From: a virus
Length of the DNA: 64,000 bases
Reading direction: 5' to 3' (one strand)
Virus record (IMG/VR): IMGVR_UViG_3300041409_000610
Location: 62,001-126,000 of that record
A program made the position numbers and the translations under genes. Shown piece by piece: positions 3,728 to 10,147 of the stretch. A model generated the notes under the pieces. The model saw only the letters and a program-made list of their open reading frames with translations. It did no database searches and had not been told where the DNA came from. How positions within the stretch are numbered: the stretch's first letter is position 1; each line of letters begins with the position of its first letter.

Positions 3728-4311
3728 GCGAGCGGAAGACCACCGAGGAGCTGGCCGCGCTGCTCGCCGGGTGCGTGGTGGCCGGTCTTCCTGCGCCCCG
3801 AGAGTCCAGCGTCCTGGACGTGCGTGCTGCCTTCCTCGCGTGGCGTCATGCCGCGAGCCAGGACGACTATCGCGGCATCAGCGGCTTCGGGGTGTTCCCC
3901 TTCGACCTTCCCGAGGTCGGTTCGGCGCTGGAGGTCAACGGTGATCAGTTCGACGTCCTTACGAGCCGGTGGGGACGCAAGGCGGAGGGCGACCGGGTCG
4001 AGTACAACCTGATCCTCCGCAAATCCACAAAGGAGCAGAGCATGGCTGTGTACGGCGCGTTCGTGTGCTTCACGAACCGCGATCTGCCCGAGGTCGCCGC
4101 CGAGGAGGACTCGCCGGACAAGGCCCGGGTCTACGCGCTCCAGAAGGCGAAGCTGACCGGCAACGAGCCCGCGTTCGTCAGCTGGGCCACCGACGACGGC
4201 GACATGGTCGAGCTGTGGCCCTCGGGCGAGCGGATGTCGACCAGTGCCTACAGCGAGCGGTTCCCGGACGACGCGCGGCGCTTCCGGGGTTCCGAGACCG
4301 TCCAGGGATGA
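3724..4311 (+). CDS. Hypothetical protein upstream of terminase, 195 aa
   Basis: GTG start in a GTGA overlap. The N-terminal third is helical, the middle reads as a beta-rich domain and the C-terminus is hydrophilic. It ends in an ATGA overlap with the terminase, so translation is probably coupled. No family recognised. Confidence 0.8.
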   Translation: MSERKTTEELAALLAGCVVAGLPAPRESSVLDVRAAFLAWRHAASQDDYRGISGFGVFPFDLPEVGSALEVNGDQFDVLTSRWGRKAEGDRVEYNLILRKSTKEQSMAVYGAFVCFTNRDLPEVAAEEDSPDKARVYALQKAKLTGNEPAFVSWATDDGDMVELWPSGERMSTSAYSERFPDDARRFRGSETVQG

Positions 4312-6278
4312 CCCTCTCGCCTCCGGCCTTCAGCCCCGTGGACTTCGCAGCGTTCACGGGGCTGCCGGTTCCTGACCCCATCACCTTCGCGATCAGCCCG
4401 CGCTGGTGTGGCCGGGGGCAACTCTACCCGCGTCAGGCGACCTTGCTCAAGGTCATCTTCCTGCGCAACGACCTCCTCACCGAGTACGACCACATGGTCA
4501 TCGACGAGTGGGAGGACTCCTTCGATCGCCACGGGAACAACGGCATCGTGCCGAAGATCCGCCAGCGGATGGCCTCGCTCCGGCTCAAGGGCTACTTCTA
4601 CTTCCGCGAGGTCCTGCTGGTCCTCGGCCGCCGCGCCGGGAAGGGCTACGTCTCGGCGCTGGCCATGGCCTACGTGCTCTGGCGCTTCATGGCCAAGGGC
4701 GATCCCCAGGAGTACTACGGGATCGACCGCGACAAGCAGCTGGCGATGTTCATCTACGCCGGGAAGAAGCAGCAGGCCCGGGAGAACCTCTGGAAGGACG
4801 TCGTCAACGTCATCCAGGGCGCCCCGTGCTTCGCCAAGTACATCTCCCGGTCGCTCGGCGAGAACCTGACCATCTACGCCCCGCACGACTTCGTCCGGCT
4901 GCGGCGGCAGAACCAGCGCGGGATCAACACCGCGCGGGACATGGCGACCTTCACGATCCAGCCGAAGGAGGCCACGCTGATGTCCGCGCGTGGCCCGGCA
5001 TCCTTCGGGCTCGGCTTCGACGAGATGGCGCACGTGGTGCCCTCGGGCGCAGGGCGGTCGGCGGAAGAGGTCTACGGCAGCGCGACGCCGTCGCTCGACC
5101 AGTTCAAGATGGACGGCTTCATCATCGATCCGTCGAGCCCCTGGCAGCAGATCGGCCAGTTCTACGCGAACTGGGAGATGACGCTGGCCTTCGACGAGGA
5201 GGGCAACCCCGAGTACCCCGAGATGATGATGCTCCAGTTGGCCAGCTGGGAGATCTACTACGACTGGAAAGACGCGCACATGCTGCCCGTCTTCCCGGCG
5301 GAGTTCACCGGCGACCTCGGGGAGTACCTGGAGCGCCCGCACCCGAATTTCCAGCGGCTCAAGGGCGCCATCCAGGAGTACGACGAGCGGATGGAGAAGC
5401 TGGAGCGGGCCAACCCCGACACCTTCGCCGTCGAGCGGCGCTCGCACTGGCAGTCGGTCGTGGACGCCTACCTGGACCCGAAGAAGGTCGAGGCGATCTT
5501 CCAGAGCGATCTCGCGATGACCCGCACGGCCAAGAACCTCACGACGTTCTACAAAGGACACGCGGACCCATCGAAGGTCAACGACAACTTCGGCCTCGCG
5601 GTCGGCCACGCCGAGGAGCACGAGGACGGCTTCCTCCGTTGCCGCTTCGATCTGCTCCACCACTGGGATCCGGCCGAGTTCCCCGACCACACGATCGACT
5701 ACATCCAGGTCGTGGACGTCGAGCTGTGGGAGATCATCTGGGGCTTCAAGATCGACGAGTTCACCTTCGACCAGCACAACTCGGCCATGCCGATCCAGCG
5801 GCTCAACCGCAAGGTCCGGCAGAACCGCGCGCCGAAGCGCATGACGATCTTCGAGCAGAAGTCCGACGCCAAGCACAACTGGCAGGTGGCCGAGTGCTTC
5901 AAGGTCGCGATCAACCAGGGCTGGGTCGAGGCGCCCTGGTACGAGACCGCCGAGCTGGAGCTGAAGTTCCTCCAGCTGAAGACCACCGCGACCACCAACC
6001 GCGTCGTGCACCAGGACACCGGGCCCGTTGTCCATGACGACGTGGCCAGGTGCATGATGGAAGTGGTCTGGACCATCCTCGGCGAGCAGGTCCGGAACTG
6101 GCAGGCGGGCATGCTGCGCGAGATGAACATCGTGACCGGCCAGCAGGGCGGCTTCAACCCGTACCAGCGCCAGGAGGCCGACCGGCAGGTCTTCGACCAG
6201 CTGATCCCCGGCGGCCGGTCGCGGGTGCGCGCCGGAGGCCTGAACCCCGCGCGCAACCCGCACCGCCGGAGGCGTTGA
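4308..6278 (+). CDS. terL: Terminase large subunit
   Basis: Packaging motor ATPase and nuclease that moves DNA into the prohead. The Walker A variant LGRRAGKG lies at residues 106-113 (Lys112), with Walker B LGFDEM at Asp238-Glu239; the C-terminal half carries acidic residues expected of a terminase nuclease, including an HDDVAR motif near the end. 656 residues fits the family. The ATG at 4308 overlaps the upstream stop and opens the homologous-looking part; the in-frame extension to 3969 lies within the upstream gene and is rejected. Its TGA stop lies inside the -35 hexamer of the next promoter. Unusually, no portal gene follows. Confidence 0.95.
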   Translation: MTLSPPAFSPVDFAAFTGLPVPDPITFAISPRWCGRGQLYPRQATLLKVIFLRNDLLTEYDHMVIDEWEDSFDRHGNNGIVPKIRQRMASLRLKGYFYFREVLLVLGRRAGKGYVSALAMAYVLWRFMAKGDPQEYYGIDRDKQLAMFIYAGKKQQARENLWKDVVNVIQGAPCFAKYISRSLGENLTIYAPHDFVRLRRQNQRGINTARDMATFTIQPKEATLMSARGPASFGLGFDEMAHVVPSGAGRSAEEVYGSATPSLDQFKMDGFIIDPSSPWQQIGQFYANWEMTLAFDEEGNPEYPEMMMLQLASWEIYYDWKDAHMLPVFPAEFTGDLGEYLERPHPNFQRLKGAIQEYDERMEKLERANPDTFAVERRSHWQSVVDAYLDPKKVEAIFQSDLAMTRTAKNLTTFYKGHADPSKVNDNFGLAVGHAEEHEDGFLRCRFDLLHHWDPAEFPDHTIDYIQVVDVELWEIIWGFKIDEFTFDQHNSAMPIQRLNRKVRQNRAPKRMTIFEQKSDAKHNWQVAECFKVAINQGWVEAPWYETAELELKFLQLKTTATTNRVVHQDTGPVVHDDVARCMMEVVWTILGEQVRNWQAGMLREMNIVTGQQGGFNPYQRQEADRQVFDQLIPGGRSRVRAGGLNPARNPHRRRR

Positions 6279-6343: not shown

Positions 6344-6547
6344 ATGGAAGCCACTGCCGTTCACCGGGACCGCGCTGCTCGTCATCACACCCACCACAAG
6401 ATCGTCTGCATCTCGTCCGCCCCCACCGCCGCAAGGACGCTCCAGCGTCGCTCGCGCCGGGCGGCGGAGCGGGCCATGTTGCTCGACCTCGTGGCGGAAG
6501 CGCTCGACGAGCGCTACGCGGTCCAGAACGAGGTGCCGAGCGAGTGA
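6344..6547 (+). CDS. Small basic protein, 67 aa
   Basis: First gene after promoter site 1. The ATG is placed by a GCACTGGAGG ribosome site 7 bases upstream; the longer frame from 6050 runs through the terminase and is rejected. His/Arg-rich N-terminus, helical C-terminus. Function unknown; ends in a GTGA overlap. Confidence 0.8.
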   Translation: MEATAVHRDRAARHHTHHKIVCISSAPTAARTLQRRSRRAAERAMLLDLVAEALDERYAVQNEVPSE

Positions 6548-6858
6548 AATCCAGCCTGCCGCCTTGCAAGAGGTGCGACTGGCCGATGGTCCCGGGGACG
6601 GTGGAAACTCAGCCGCCCCCGGGCTTCGTCGTGCACAAGTCCCGGCACCTCTGCCGCCGCTGCTTCGCCTGGGCCAGGGGGCACGGCGTGCTCGACGACT
6701 ATCCGACGGTCTACCGCCGCGCGGCCGAGGTCATCGAGGAGACCACCTTCCTGGCCGAGCAGGGCCTGAAGCGGATGGAGATCATCGTCAAGCTCGGGAT
6801 GAGCCGCTCGGCCTTCGAGCGGACGCACCAGCGCGCCGGTGTCCAGATGCCTCGTTGA
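6544..6858 (+). CDS. Zinc-ribbon and HTH-like protein, 104 aa
   Basis: GTG start in overlap. Two Cys pairs (Cys8/Cys11 and Cys37/Cys40) form a probable zinc ribbon, followed by a helical domain whose end (LGMSRSAFERTHQRAG) looks like a helix-turn-helix. Likely DNA-binding. Its TGA stop is part of the -35 of promoter site 2. Confidence 0.8.
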   Translation: MKSSLPPCKRCDWPMVPGTVETQPPPGFVVHKSRHLCRRCFAWARGHGVLDDYPTVYRRAAEVIEETTFLAEQGLKRMEIIVKLGMSRSAFERTHQRAGVQMPR

Positions 6859-6883
6859 CCTACCCTACCCATTCGGGTAGTAT
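6855..6883 (+). promoter_or_regulatory. Promoter with embedded palindromic operator (site 2)
   Basis: TTGACC (6855-6860), 17 bases, TAGTAT (6878-6883); dyad CTACCC-ATTC-GGGTAG at 6865-6880. One of the best -10 matches. The leader has CACCTGGAGG rather than the usual ribosome site. Drives 6917. Confidence 0.85.
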
Positions 6884-6916: not shown

Positions 6917-7525
6917 ATGACCGATTTCGAGCCCCTGAGCTGGGAAGAGGTCCGCCGCGACTACCGCGAGCAGCCCCCGGCCGAGGACGTCGAGTTCGAC
7001 GTCACCTACGAGGACCAGATCGGCCCGGCCTGGGACGTCTGGGCCCTGAGCTACCCGCAGCGAGAGTCCGACGCGCGCAAGTACCTGGTGCAGATCGACG
7101 TCAGCGACGGCGTCTACTGGTACCGCGACACCCGTGACGAGCGGCTCTACGGCATGCCGGACATCGACCTGGTCCGCCGGGAGAACGAGCGCCTTGCCGG
7201 GGCCGCTGTGCGCGCTGAGAGCCGCCACGACGCCATTCGCCGCGTGCACTACGCGGTCGGCATGTTCGCCTTCCTCTCGCTGGTGCTGCTCGGCCTGGCG
7301 CCGGACGTCATTCCCTGGATCTGGGTCGCGCTGCCCTTCCTCGTAGTGGCCTACCGGCACGCGCTGAACCACGCCCCGGCGCCGCGCTACGACAAGCTGA
7401 CCGACATCCGCTTCGACGTGTTCGTCTCCGACGAGGAGAAGCGCGAGCGCCGCCGCCGCCTGATCGCCAACGTGGTCACCCTGGGCGCCACCGTGCTGCT
7501 GATCTGGCTGTTCAGCCGCCACTGA
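6917..7525 (+). CDS. Membrane protein with three predicted segments, 202 aa
   Basis: A soluble acidic N-terminal domain of about 100 residues is followed by two close hydrophobic segments (about 108-130 and 132-150) and a third at the C-terminus (about 181-199), with a basic cytoplasmic-looking linker (EEKRERRRR). Probably an inner-membrane protein. No family recognised. Preceded by promoter site 2. Confidence 0.8.
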   Translation: MTDFEPLSWEEVRRDYREQPPAEDVEFDVTYEDQIGPAWDVWALSYPQRESDARKYLVQIDVSDGVYWYRDTRDERLYGMPDIDLVRRENERLAGAAVRAESRHDAIRRVHYAVGMFAFLSLVLLGLAPDVIPWIWVALPFLVVAYRHALNHAPAPRYDKLTDIRFDVFVSDEEKRERRRRLIANVVTLGATVLLIWLFSRH

Positions 7526-7557
7526 TCGCGCCCAACGAGCGAACCCGAGGAGGATCC

Positions 7558-9717
7558 GTGGAAGATGATCTGGACCATGTGCAGCGCCACGCCTTGCATC
7601 AGCTGCACGGGTACGACGAGATCATTTCCGGCTCCGACGCCGCCCACCTGATGCGCGAGCACGGCATCCACCACCACGACGAAGATCCGTGGGAGGCCGG
7701 TGATGTCGACGACGACCACATGGTCCATCCCTCGGAGGCTGGCTCGGTGCACCACCCGGCCAACGTCCCGCTGCACACGTCTCAGGACACTCTCTACAAG
7801 AGCGGGCTGGAGCACTACATCCGCCACCCCTACACCGGCGGCGGGGGCATCGGCCCGCGCCCCGGCGAGCCGAGCACCTGGGAGCACAACGGCGAGCATT
7901 GGATCGGCGGTGGCCACCACCGGATCCTCGCGGACCGGATGACCTACCGGAACGGCACCTCAGTGCAGGATCGCACCAACCGGCGGCGCCTGGGTTTTAA
8001 GAGAGCGGCGGCCCGGCCGCTCTACCACGGAACCTCGCGCGACCTGGACAACGTGGTGCCCGCCGACCGACACGGCCAGGGGGAAGTGTCCACCGGCCTG
8101 ACGCGGACCGACCGTGCCTACGCGACGCACGACCCGCAGATGGCACGCAGCTACGCCGAGATGTCCGGCATCGACACCGGCGGCCGCCCCCGGGTCTACC
8201 AGGTCGAGCACTCCGGCCCGGCGCACGCGCTGGAGCCGGACCCGGGCTACGACGCCGACGTGCGGAGCCCGCACGGCTTCCGGGTGCTGCGCGAGGTCCC
8301 CGAGCACGAGCTGACCAGGATGCCTCGGCGCGGGGCCCAGGAGCAGCTCCGCTGCCCCTGCGGATTGCCAGTGGAGTTCGACCCGCAGAACGGCTGGGAG
8401 CACGCTGACGGCTCAATCAGCCACGATGGTGAGTACTCCGACAAGAGCGTCTCGGACCTGATGGAGGAACACGATGGCCGAATCGCAGGGAAGGGAAAGC
8501 CACGGCACGTGGCACCCGACGTGGCGCGCGGAGCTGCGCCGTCGGAAGGCAACTCCGCGCGAGCACTGGCACCGGACTCCGGCGGGGACTCCGACGGAGA
8601 GGGCGCACGAGGAGCACTCCGGCCGCTGACCGAACACCCGAAGGTCTCCCGGGACCTGGCCAAGCTGCCGAGGAACGTCCAGACGGCCTACCACGAGCGC
8701 GTGGACGGCCTCCGGCGCGGCGAGCCGCACCCGTCCACGCACGCGCTCAACGGCGCGCTGAAGGGCTGGCAGGCCACCAACCTGAACTTCCTGAACCGCG
8801 TGGTGCACCGGTACGACGGCGACGAGCTGCACGTGCTCAGCGCGGGCAACCACGACGAGGCCTACGAGCAGGGCGCCCGGCGCAGCGGCCGCTACGTGGC
8901 GCCCACAGAGCGGCTGTTCGGCCCGACCTACGGCCTGGACACCCGGCTCTGGGACGGCGAGCAGCTCAAGCTGGCCGTGCGCAGCTCGGTGGTCCGGCAG
9001 TTCACCGAGTTCTGCGAGCGGCACGGCTACGCGGGCTGGCCGCACTGGGCGAAGATCGTCTTTTTCGGCTCCGAGGCCAGCGAGTGGACGGCGCCGGACC
9101 TGCACGGCAACAGCGACTTCGACCTCTCGATCGGTATCCACTACTTCAGCTACCGGCTGCACAACCACGCGGACGTCTGGGCCTCCGACGCCGACATCGC
9201 CGCGCGCTTCACCCGGGAGATGCACGCCGAGCTGAACGACCCGCAGCACGTCTTCCCGGGCGTCGAGGGCACCTACGACCAGACCTGGTTCGCCAACCTC
9301 CAGGGCTGGGACATCGCCGAGATCCGGCCGTACGCGGCCTACGACGTGGTGACCGACCAGTGGCTCGTGAAGCCGCCGCACCTGCCGGACTGGTCGCTCA
9401 AAAGCTTCCCCGAGGGCCCGGGGATCGCCGAGGAGGTCAAGGGCATGGTCGAGGCGGCCGAGGGCATCCTGGCCATGCCGGAGCCCTACCGGACCCAGAA
9501 CGGCGCCGCCTTCTGGGAGTTCGTGCACGCCAACCGCTCCGACGCCTTCGGCCCGAACGGCGAGGGCTGGTGGGATCCGCGCAACGTCATCGAGAAGGCC
9601 CTGGATCAGAAAGGCCTGATGCAAAAGCTCTTCGACTGTCACCGCCGGGCCACGGAGGACCCCGGTTCCCTCGCCGCTCCGGCAGACTGGAGCAACAGCC
9701 CGGCTCCAGCCCGGTGA
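7558..9717 (+). CDS. Multidomain protein: ParB-like, Arr-like ART, RelE/ParE-like and nucleotidyltransferase-like segments
   Basis: 719 residues, GTG start after GAGGAG. Four segments can be read in order. (1) About 80-130: a ParB-like stretch ending in GGGHHRILADR (His120-His121-Arg122). (2) About 153-255: YHGTS at 156-160, an A-Y-A-T/A-x-S-Y-A run, VYQVEHSGP, EPDPG and RVLREV, matching the layout of Arr-type rifampin ADP-ribosyltransferases. (3) A small CPCG element near 266-290. (4) About 356-436: KVSRDLAKLPRNV, a GALKGW turn, RVVHRYDGDELHVLSAGNH, the pattern of RelE/ParE toxins. (5) About 495-530: GS at 504-505 and SDFDL at 519-523, the nucleotidyltransferase G-S...D-x-D signature. Domain calls are by eye. 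The protein could be an injected or early effector; substrate unknown. Confidence 0.9.
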   Translation: MEDDLDHVQRHALHQLHGYDEIISGSDAAHLMREHGIHHHDEDPWEAGDVDDDHMVHPSEAGSVHHPANVPLHTSQDTLYKSGLEHYIRHPYTGGGGIGPRPGEPSTWEHNGEHWIGGGHHRILADRMTYRNGTSVQDRTNRRRLGFKRAAARPLYHGTSRDLDNVVPADRHGQGEVSTGLTRTDRAYATHDPQMARSYAEMSGIDTGGRPRVYQVEHSGPAHALEPDPGYDADVRSPHGFRVLREVPEHELTRMPRRGAQEQLRCPCGLPVEFDPQNGWEHADGSISHDGEYSDKSVSDLMEEHDGRIAGKGKPRHVAPDVARGAAPSEGNSARALAPDSGGDSDGEGARGALRPLTEHPKVSRDLAKLPRNVQTAYHERVDGLRRGEPHPSTHALNGALKGWQATNLNFLNRVVHRYDGDELHVLSAGNHDEAYEQGARRSGRYVAPTERLFGPTYGLDTRLWDGEQLKLAVRSSVVRQFTEFCERHGYAGWPHWAKIVFFGSEASEWTAPDLHGNSDFDLSIGIHYFSYRLHNHADVWASDADIAARFTREMHAELNDPQHVFPGVEGTYDQTWFANLQGWDIAEIRPYAAYDVVTDQWLVKPPHLPDWSLKSFPEGPGIAEEVKGMVEAAEGILAMPEPYRTQNGAAFWEFVHANRSDAFGPNGEGWWDPRNVIEKALDQKGLMQKLFDCHRRATEDPGSLAAPADWSNSPAPAR

Positions 9718-9793: not shown

Positions 9794-10147
9794 ATGCCGT
9801 ATTCGAAGGTGAGCGCTCGCTACGACCCCGCAGCCCGGGACTGGCAGTTCGAGCGCAAAGTGACCCGGCTGATTGCCGAGACCGACTTCCTGGACCTGAA
9901 GTTCCCGGAGGACATGCCCCCGGACGTCTACCAGAAGATGCTCTACGACTTCGAGCAGAACAGCATCCCGAACACCGAGCGCAACCGCGAGATGTTCCTG
10001 GAGACCCTCCAGCTCACGCAGGAGCTGAAGGAGTTCGGCGTCACGCCGGAGAAGGTGGCGCCGACGAAGGACGGGCGCGGGTACGTCCGGCTGTCCTTCG
10101 ACGACATGTTCAAGCTGCTCGACCTGATTCCCGAGGAGGGCGAATGA
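9794..10147 (+). CDS. Hypothetical protein, 117 aa
   Basis: ATG follows a CCGCACTGGAGG leader like those of the palindrome promoters, but no dyad is present upstream. Helical, acidic in the second half; no domain recognised. ATGA overlap with the next gene. Confidence 0.8.
   Translation: MPYSKVSARYDPAARDWQFERKVTRLIAETDFLDLKFPEDMPPDVYQKMLYDFEQNSIPNTERNREMFLETLQLTQELKEFGVTPEKVAPTKDGRGYVRLSFDDMFKLLDLIPEEGE

Follow-up and report, generated by a model that had tools for sequence, protein, structure and literature searches.

The question raised by the region downstream of the terminase gene in the viral genome analysed here is what kind of protein is encoded by a long open reading frame in which motifs of several unlike enzymes follow one another, and what this protein may do for the phage. 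The window, that is the whole analysed stretch of 64,000 nucleotides (bases 62001-126000 of a 155,347-bp viral record), contains on its plus strand, on which all its features given with coordinates below are located, an ORF at 7558..9717 that starts with GTG, is preceded by GAGGAGG at 7547-7553, and encodes 719 aa. A sequence-only reading of this DNA had described the product as one polypeptide joining segments similar to ParB, Arr, RelE/ParE, and nucleotidyltransferases (NTases). The single ORF and all the motifs named in that reading were found in their places: GGGHHR at residues 117-122, YHGTS at 156-160, VYQVEHSGP, GS at 504-505, and D520/D522. Direct searches of Pfam, PHROG, NCBIfam, and PDB with the whole protein (P0001) as a query gave no significant match.

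As judged from codon use, the presence of relatives, and purifying selection, the ORF is confirmed as a real gene. Over almost its whole length, GC3 stays at about 0.8-1.0, with a dip to 0.67-0.8 only at residues ~281-350, where composition alone could point to a different frame. Because the related protein of locus L101 keeps the GKGKPRHxAPDVAR sequence, conserved in the linker that precedes the RelE-like module (8464..8613, residues 303-352), and because third-position differences dominate over the dip (12/13/21 differences between L101 and the window by codon position), this stretch is read in the main frame as well. The modules are 68-81% identical between the window protein and proteins of independent contigs, with dN/dS values against relatives of 0.19 for the ParB-like module, 0.30 for the Arr module with the adjacent CPCG segment, and 0.41-0.51 for the NTase domain. 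In the case of the RelE-like module, the value is 0.93 with few synonymous differences behind it, which leaves open decay or positive selection. A 50-aa ORF in the +1 frame, preceded by a Shine-Dalgarno sequence (~8470), is open at 8470-8630 of the window and also in L101. It was rejected as a possible RelE antitoxin gene, as frame-0 third positions vary most there and it is the main frame that is constrained. A sequencing frameshift or a chimera is made unlikely by L101 and L014.

The C-terminal NTase-like domain occupies 8902..9642 (residues 449-695, with G504 S505, D520 D522, D585, and H657 R660). The combined use of a pattern and tblastn identified 139 viral relatives of it, and 80 loci were kept. 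Among the 54 aligned sequences, G504, D520, D522, T576, P591, Y592, W602, H657, and R660 are invariant, position 505 is always S or G, and D585, which may be the third carboxylate of a pol-beta NTase, is present in 51. The structural model of the domain is confident except for the C-terminal tail, and its neighbours among the BFVD viral structures include a protein named nucleotidyl transferase. Comparison of the domain with PDB sequences gave no match, and the top 50 of the PDB fold list for the RelE-NTase model contained RelE-type and other non-NTase matches, so that solved structures did not supply a name for the NTase. The Pfam families PF01909, PF22014, and PF15738, looked for in seven viral records, did not match the effector protein. 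Little could be learnt from a comparison with five stretches of Streptomyces NTP_transf_2 domains, four of which were read in the wrong frame; a single bacterial protein (L129) showed the motif, its GS and DLD being in register with those of the domain at P=0.05 only. The earlier description of this segment as nucleotidyltransferase-like is upheld by the near-invariant GS/DxD motifs and the confident model, but not by any solved homologue; residues 449-695 are probably a pol-beta NTase. In L047 (4390-5000), the domain is divided between two ORFs, and what separates them looks like a gene for an HNH homing endonuclease. The L022 ORF (2778-6104) carries in this domain an in-frame insertion of ~210 residues (residues ~520-740), near the L047 break site.

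Sequence comparisons indicate, as a new observation, that this C-terminal domain stays fixed in a protein family encoded by ~150-kb actinobacterial myoviruses and Streptomyces phage-plasmids, while other modules are exchanged. For instance, the L014 protein, 75% identical to the window protein over the shared parts, has the order GNAT-Arr-CPCG-NTase, and that of L101 has the order ParB-ART-PolyVal-RelE-zincin-NTase. Relative to the window protein, GNAT replaces ParB in the former, while in the latter ART-PolyVal replaces Arr and a zincin is inserted between RelE and NTase. Adjacent genes of the Streptomyces plasmid pRLB1-9.1, which is also an IMG/VR virus, encode GNAT-ParB-NTase and zincin-RelE-RelE-ART-PolyVal-2H, and about 50 further long ORFs show other orders with GNAT, 2H, a NUDIX motif, zincin, ParB, and ART. 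These module maps were made with profiles grown from single seeds in the fetched loci, and their individual boundaries are approximate. Within one and the same protein pair, dS is 0.92 for ParB, 0.49 for NTase, and 0.22 for RelE; such inequality is as expected for mosaics, and its weight is lessened by GC3 saturation. No second protein with precisely the order ParB-Arr-CPCG-RelE-NTase turned up in the collections searched. The class of polyvalent proteins, to which such architectures belong, has been described before (PMC5512222).

The NTase domain was found in 86 ORFs, of which 40 are fused (39 loci, 35 distinct sequences) and 46 stand-alone. A terminase gene is located upstream on the same strand, at a distance of up to 2.4 kb, in 30 of the 40 fused ORFs and in 0 of the 46 stand-alone ones; the window's own copy, which has the same arrangement, is not included in the 40. 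A search of genome contigs with the NTase alignment pointed to two Streptomyces contigs. Terminase and polyvalent genes are present together in Streptomyces replicons or contigs of ~150 kb, namely NZ_CP041653.1 (pRLB1-9.1, 154 kb), NZ_MULI01000008.1, and NZ_SSBL01000019.1. These replicons, annotated as a plasmid or genome contigs, are probably phage-plasmids.

In the window, the terminase large subunit gene, which served as the syntenic marker, is located at 3969..6278 (PHROG_2, E=1e-9), and its product resembles terminases of large mycobacteriophages and of Rhodococcus phage E3. Identity to the counterparts in Myrna/Bxz1-type mycobacteriophages and phage E3 amounts to 57-59% for the major head protein and 31-34% for the terminase; the phage is therefore a distant relative of Ceeclamvirinae, and it is a myovirus, as it has tail sheath and baseplate genes. 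As the sequence-only reading had it, two genes, 6544-6858 and 6917-7525, lie between the terminase gene and the effector gene. The notion that it forms a transcription unit of its own is doubtful, since only 32 bp separate it from the upstream gene (6917..7525, conserved in L014 and L101), with which it is probably co-transcribed, and the sole promoter-like site, TTGACC-17-TAGTAT at 6855..6883 (a consensus match only), precedes gene 6917. The downstream gene (9794..10147, 117 aa) is a conserved neighbour in L014, L101, and L022. While the packaging gene is near the effector gene, the head and tail genes are located elsewhere in the genome. In the nearest isolated relatives examined, Rhodococcus phages E3, HyRo, and Finch, small genes directly follow the terminase gene and no such effector is encoded there, which argues that the effector gene is not a core virion gene.

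Of the remaining modules, the Arr-type ADP-ribosyltransferase (8014..8298, residues 153-247) is identified firmly. Although the window protein alone gave no significant Pfam match in this module, a profile of 24 relatives matched Arr-ms (2HW2/9IAF) at 8e-12 and ARR-2 at 1e-10, and several relatives scored above the PF12120 cut-off. The core of the AlphaFold2 model has pLDDT mostly above 90, and its three best Foldseek matches are Arr structures. Residues H157, Y188, and D228 align to H19, Y49, and D84 of Arr, which are required for its activity (PMC6092378, PMC13246000). This agreement of profile, fold, and triad bears out the Arr-like assignment and is strong support for a predicted Arr-type ADP-ribosyltransferase. 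Two or three Arr modules per protein, across adjacent genes, occur in L041 and L020. On the Euzebya pacifica plasmid NZ_CP031166.1 (126089-126625), a gene named rifampin ADP-ribosyltransferase, with a product 36% identical to the phage Arr module, adjoins GNAT and NUDIX genes, so that the same kinds of modules are present there as separate genes.

Between the Arr and RelE-like modules lies a segment overlooked in the sequence-only reading (8329..8457, residues 258-300, CPCGLPVEFDPQNGWEHADGSISH; CPCG...GWxHADGSISH at 266-290). It is shared with L014, L017, and L025, and the spacing of its Cys and His residues makes it a candidate small zinc-binding element.

In the case of the RelE/YafQ-like module (8614..8877, residues 353-440, with H395, H417, R418, and H432), the evidence comes from structure prediction. 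An alignment of 17 sequences gave PDB profile matches below significance, YoeB and RelE among them, the RelE-like toxin family PHROG_1213 matched the window protein at E=0.13, and no Pfam family matched above its cut-off. The model of this module has pLDDT above 90 and matches Vibrio cholerae YafQ with a TM score of 0.81 and rmsd of 1.7 Å, followed by Mtb RelE1, HP0894, RelBE2, and YoeB. This strongly supports a predicted RelE/YafQ fold of the BECR type, in line with the RelE/ParE-style segment recognised before. By sequence alignment, H395 corresponds to YafQ His50 and H432 to His87, while His63, Asp67, Arg83, and Phe91 have no clear counterparts. RelE and YafQ are classic toxins, and destruction is the commoner role of the RelE fold. 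No cognate antitoxin was recognised next to the module, the +1-frame ORF not being constrained as a gene. A scan of contigs with the close RelE pair recovered only the contig of L101.

The ParB-like N-terminal module (7558..8001, residues 1-148, GGGHHR at 7906-7923) has a close copy only in L101 (75-76% identical); no homologues were found in the phages or plasmids searched, with this one viral contig as the exception. When a profile built from the ParB modules of relatives was used for scoring, the GHHR motif exceeded all 2376 scored controls (1886 shuffles and 490 antisense slices), in an alignment of ~20 residues. The fold model has pLDDT of 28-54 over most of the module. The ParB-like designation is retained for the short motif, but the poor fold model does not extend it further, and the module may be called ParB-like at the motif level only.

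Taken together, the reading that we favour, and consider fairly probable, is that the protein serves a large actinobacterial myovirus as a polyvalent effector, with a constant C-terminal NTase-like domain and other enzyme modules exchanged between related phages. Architecture, module swapping, and terminase synteny all agree with the earlier proposal of a polyvalent effector, a class described by Iyer et al. in 2017 (PMC5512222), for which an early, possibly injected role has been proposed. The effector would be produced together with the products of late or packaging genes, or else at an early stage of the following infection, and might be carried in the virion. Once inside the host, the Arr module would ADP-ribosylate a factor of the host or of a rival, and the RelE/YafQ module might cleave RNA or bind the ribosome. 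The NTase would attach a nucleotide to either RNA or protein, and an NTP-binding or nuclease function could belong to the ParB-like module. Jointly, the modules may bring the host to a halt, re-direct it, or weaken its defences. Host RNA polymerase, RNA, and tRNA, put forward as substrates in the sequence-only reading, are hypothetical targets. A virion-delivered or early role in host takeover or counter-defence is the best reading, and the swapping of modules fits an arms race against host targets.

Possibly, the delivery of such proteins involves a short tag. In Streptomyces-type relatives, the motif SATxFFRQAA is present at the N-termini of both neighbouring genes' products and again at module junctions; FFRQAA-like sequences occupy such places in L032, L040, L046, L025, L099, L100, and others. 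The pattern F[RK]xA[AS] occurs 22 times, whereas shuffled sequences give a mean of 2.1, and other ORFs contain it less often; the comparison is a descriptive one, as the tag was spotted by eye and some loci are closely related. In the window protein, RLGFKRAAA at the ParB/Arr junction (7987..8013, residues 144-152) is possibly a degenerate tag; it is not among the top scores. It is a tentative and rather doubtful suggestion that the terminase-linked locus is a cassette system for delivered effectors, with the NTase-like anchor, freely exchanged modules, and the tag as a packaging or processing signal. If the tag were such a signal, it would be a handle for finding delivered proteins.

Other explanations differ in how well they agree with these data. 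A role in counter-defence or RNA repair, in which the NTase, with 2H, NUDIX, and ART in relatives, would act by removal or repair on nucleotide signals of the host or on damaged RNA and would not attack the host itself, seems rather unlikely. Although motifs of NUDIX and of 2H, the 2'-5' RNA ligase family (with one weak Acb1 match), are often present in relatives, the window protein has neither module, and its RelE fold is of a kind associated with destruction rather than repair. Pol-beta NTases serve RNA repair in jumbo phages (PMC7824862), which speaks for such a role. Unlikely, too, is a resident, non-injected effector of a phage or phage-plasmid that would work against rival phages or would stabilise its carrier in the manner of a toxin, the toxicity coming from RelE. 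Relatives are located on the circular plasmid pRLB1-9.1 and on 150-kb Streptomyces contigs, and some are therefore carried stably, which together with the toxin nature of RelE/YafQ agrees with residence; against it, no antitoxin gene was found, and terminase synteny favours a link to packaging.

Phage-borne rifamycin resistance is very improbable, despite the Arr family membership, the intact triad, and the known presence of Arr-family ARTs in actinophages (PMC9503650). The rifampin-binding motifs of Arr, SN[YF] and DPN[VL] (PMC6092378), are not kept in the window Arr module, in which the loop reads ADRHGQGEVSTG and DPGYD, and the Arr module therefore probably acts on a target other than rifamycin; moreover, L101 has ART-PolyVal in the Arr position. 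An assembly chimera or decayed fusion, to which the unusual module order and the composition dip at residues ~281-350 might point, can practically be dismissed, as the same junctions are partly kept in independent contigs (Arr-CPCG in L014, linker-RelE in L101), the frame has no stops, and dN/dS is below 1 for most modules, L101 and L014 having largely refuted it already.

With the effector reading, polyvalent proteins come to include a well-populated family of large actinobacterial phages and Streptomyces phage-plasmids, the fixed part of which is a highly conserved NTase-like domain with no Pfam family above the cut-off and no solved sequence match. The papers found in our literature search cover the polyvalent class, and none of them describes this NTase-anchored family. 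Close relatives of 68-75% identity that differ by whole modules are natural experiments on which activity meets which host defence.

Comparison with known systems may be made module by module. The same NTase-like domain, 23-28% identical, is present in BRock gp39 and LuckySocke gp186, which are stand-alone single-domain proteins of no named function. Minimal NTases fused to ArdC-N occur in polyvalent proteins mainly of Firmicutes elements, whereas here the domain is ~250 aa long and fixed near the terminase. With Arr (PF12120, PDB 2HW2), the window module has the profile, fold, and H-Y-D triad in common, but it is embedded in a phage multidomain protein and does not keep the rifampin-binding motifs. 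With the YafQ, RelE, and YoeB toxins, the RelE-like module shares the fold and, by alignment, histidines at the places of YafQ His50 and His87; unlike them, it is fused, with no antitoxin seen, and not all the other catalytic residues are kept. T4 Alt, a virion-delivered ART, belongs to a different, R-S-E clade, while delivery of the window protein is hypothetical; a possible working likeness to Alt and other virion-delivered ARTs would be a phage ART that acts on the host at once.

The closest likeness in organisation is to the phage polyvalent proteins (PMC5512222). The ART described there is of the HYD2 clade and here it is Arr-type, and the polyvalent domains named there include PBECR but no RelE-type module. 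ARTs have also been noted near terminase and head genes (PMC9503650). A polyvalent protein combines at least two unlike catalytic domains in one phage polypeptide, and the window protein carries Arr, the RelE fold, and a probable NTase. Likewise, in the described polyvalent proteins, many unlike enzyme domains, ART, ParB, GNAT, 2H, and zincin modules among them, are joined in one polypeptide encoded near the packaging genes.
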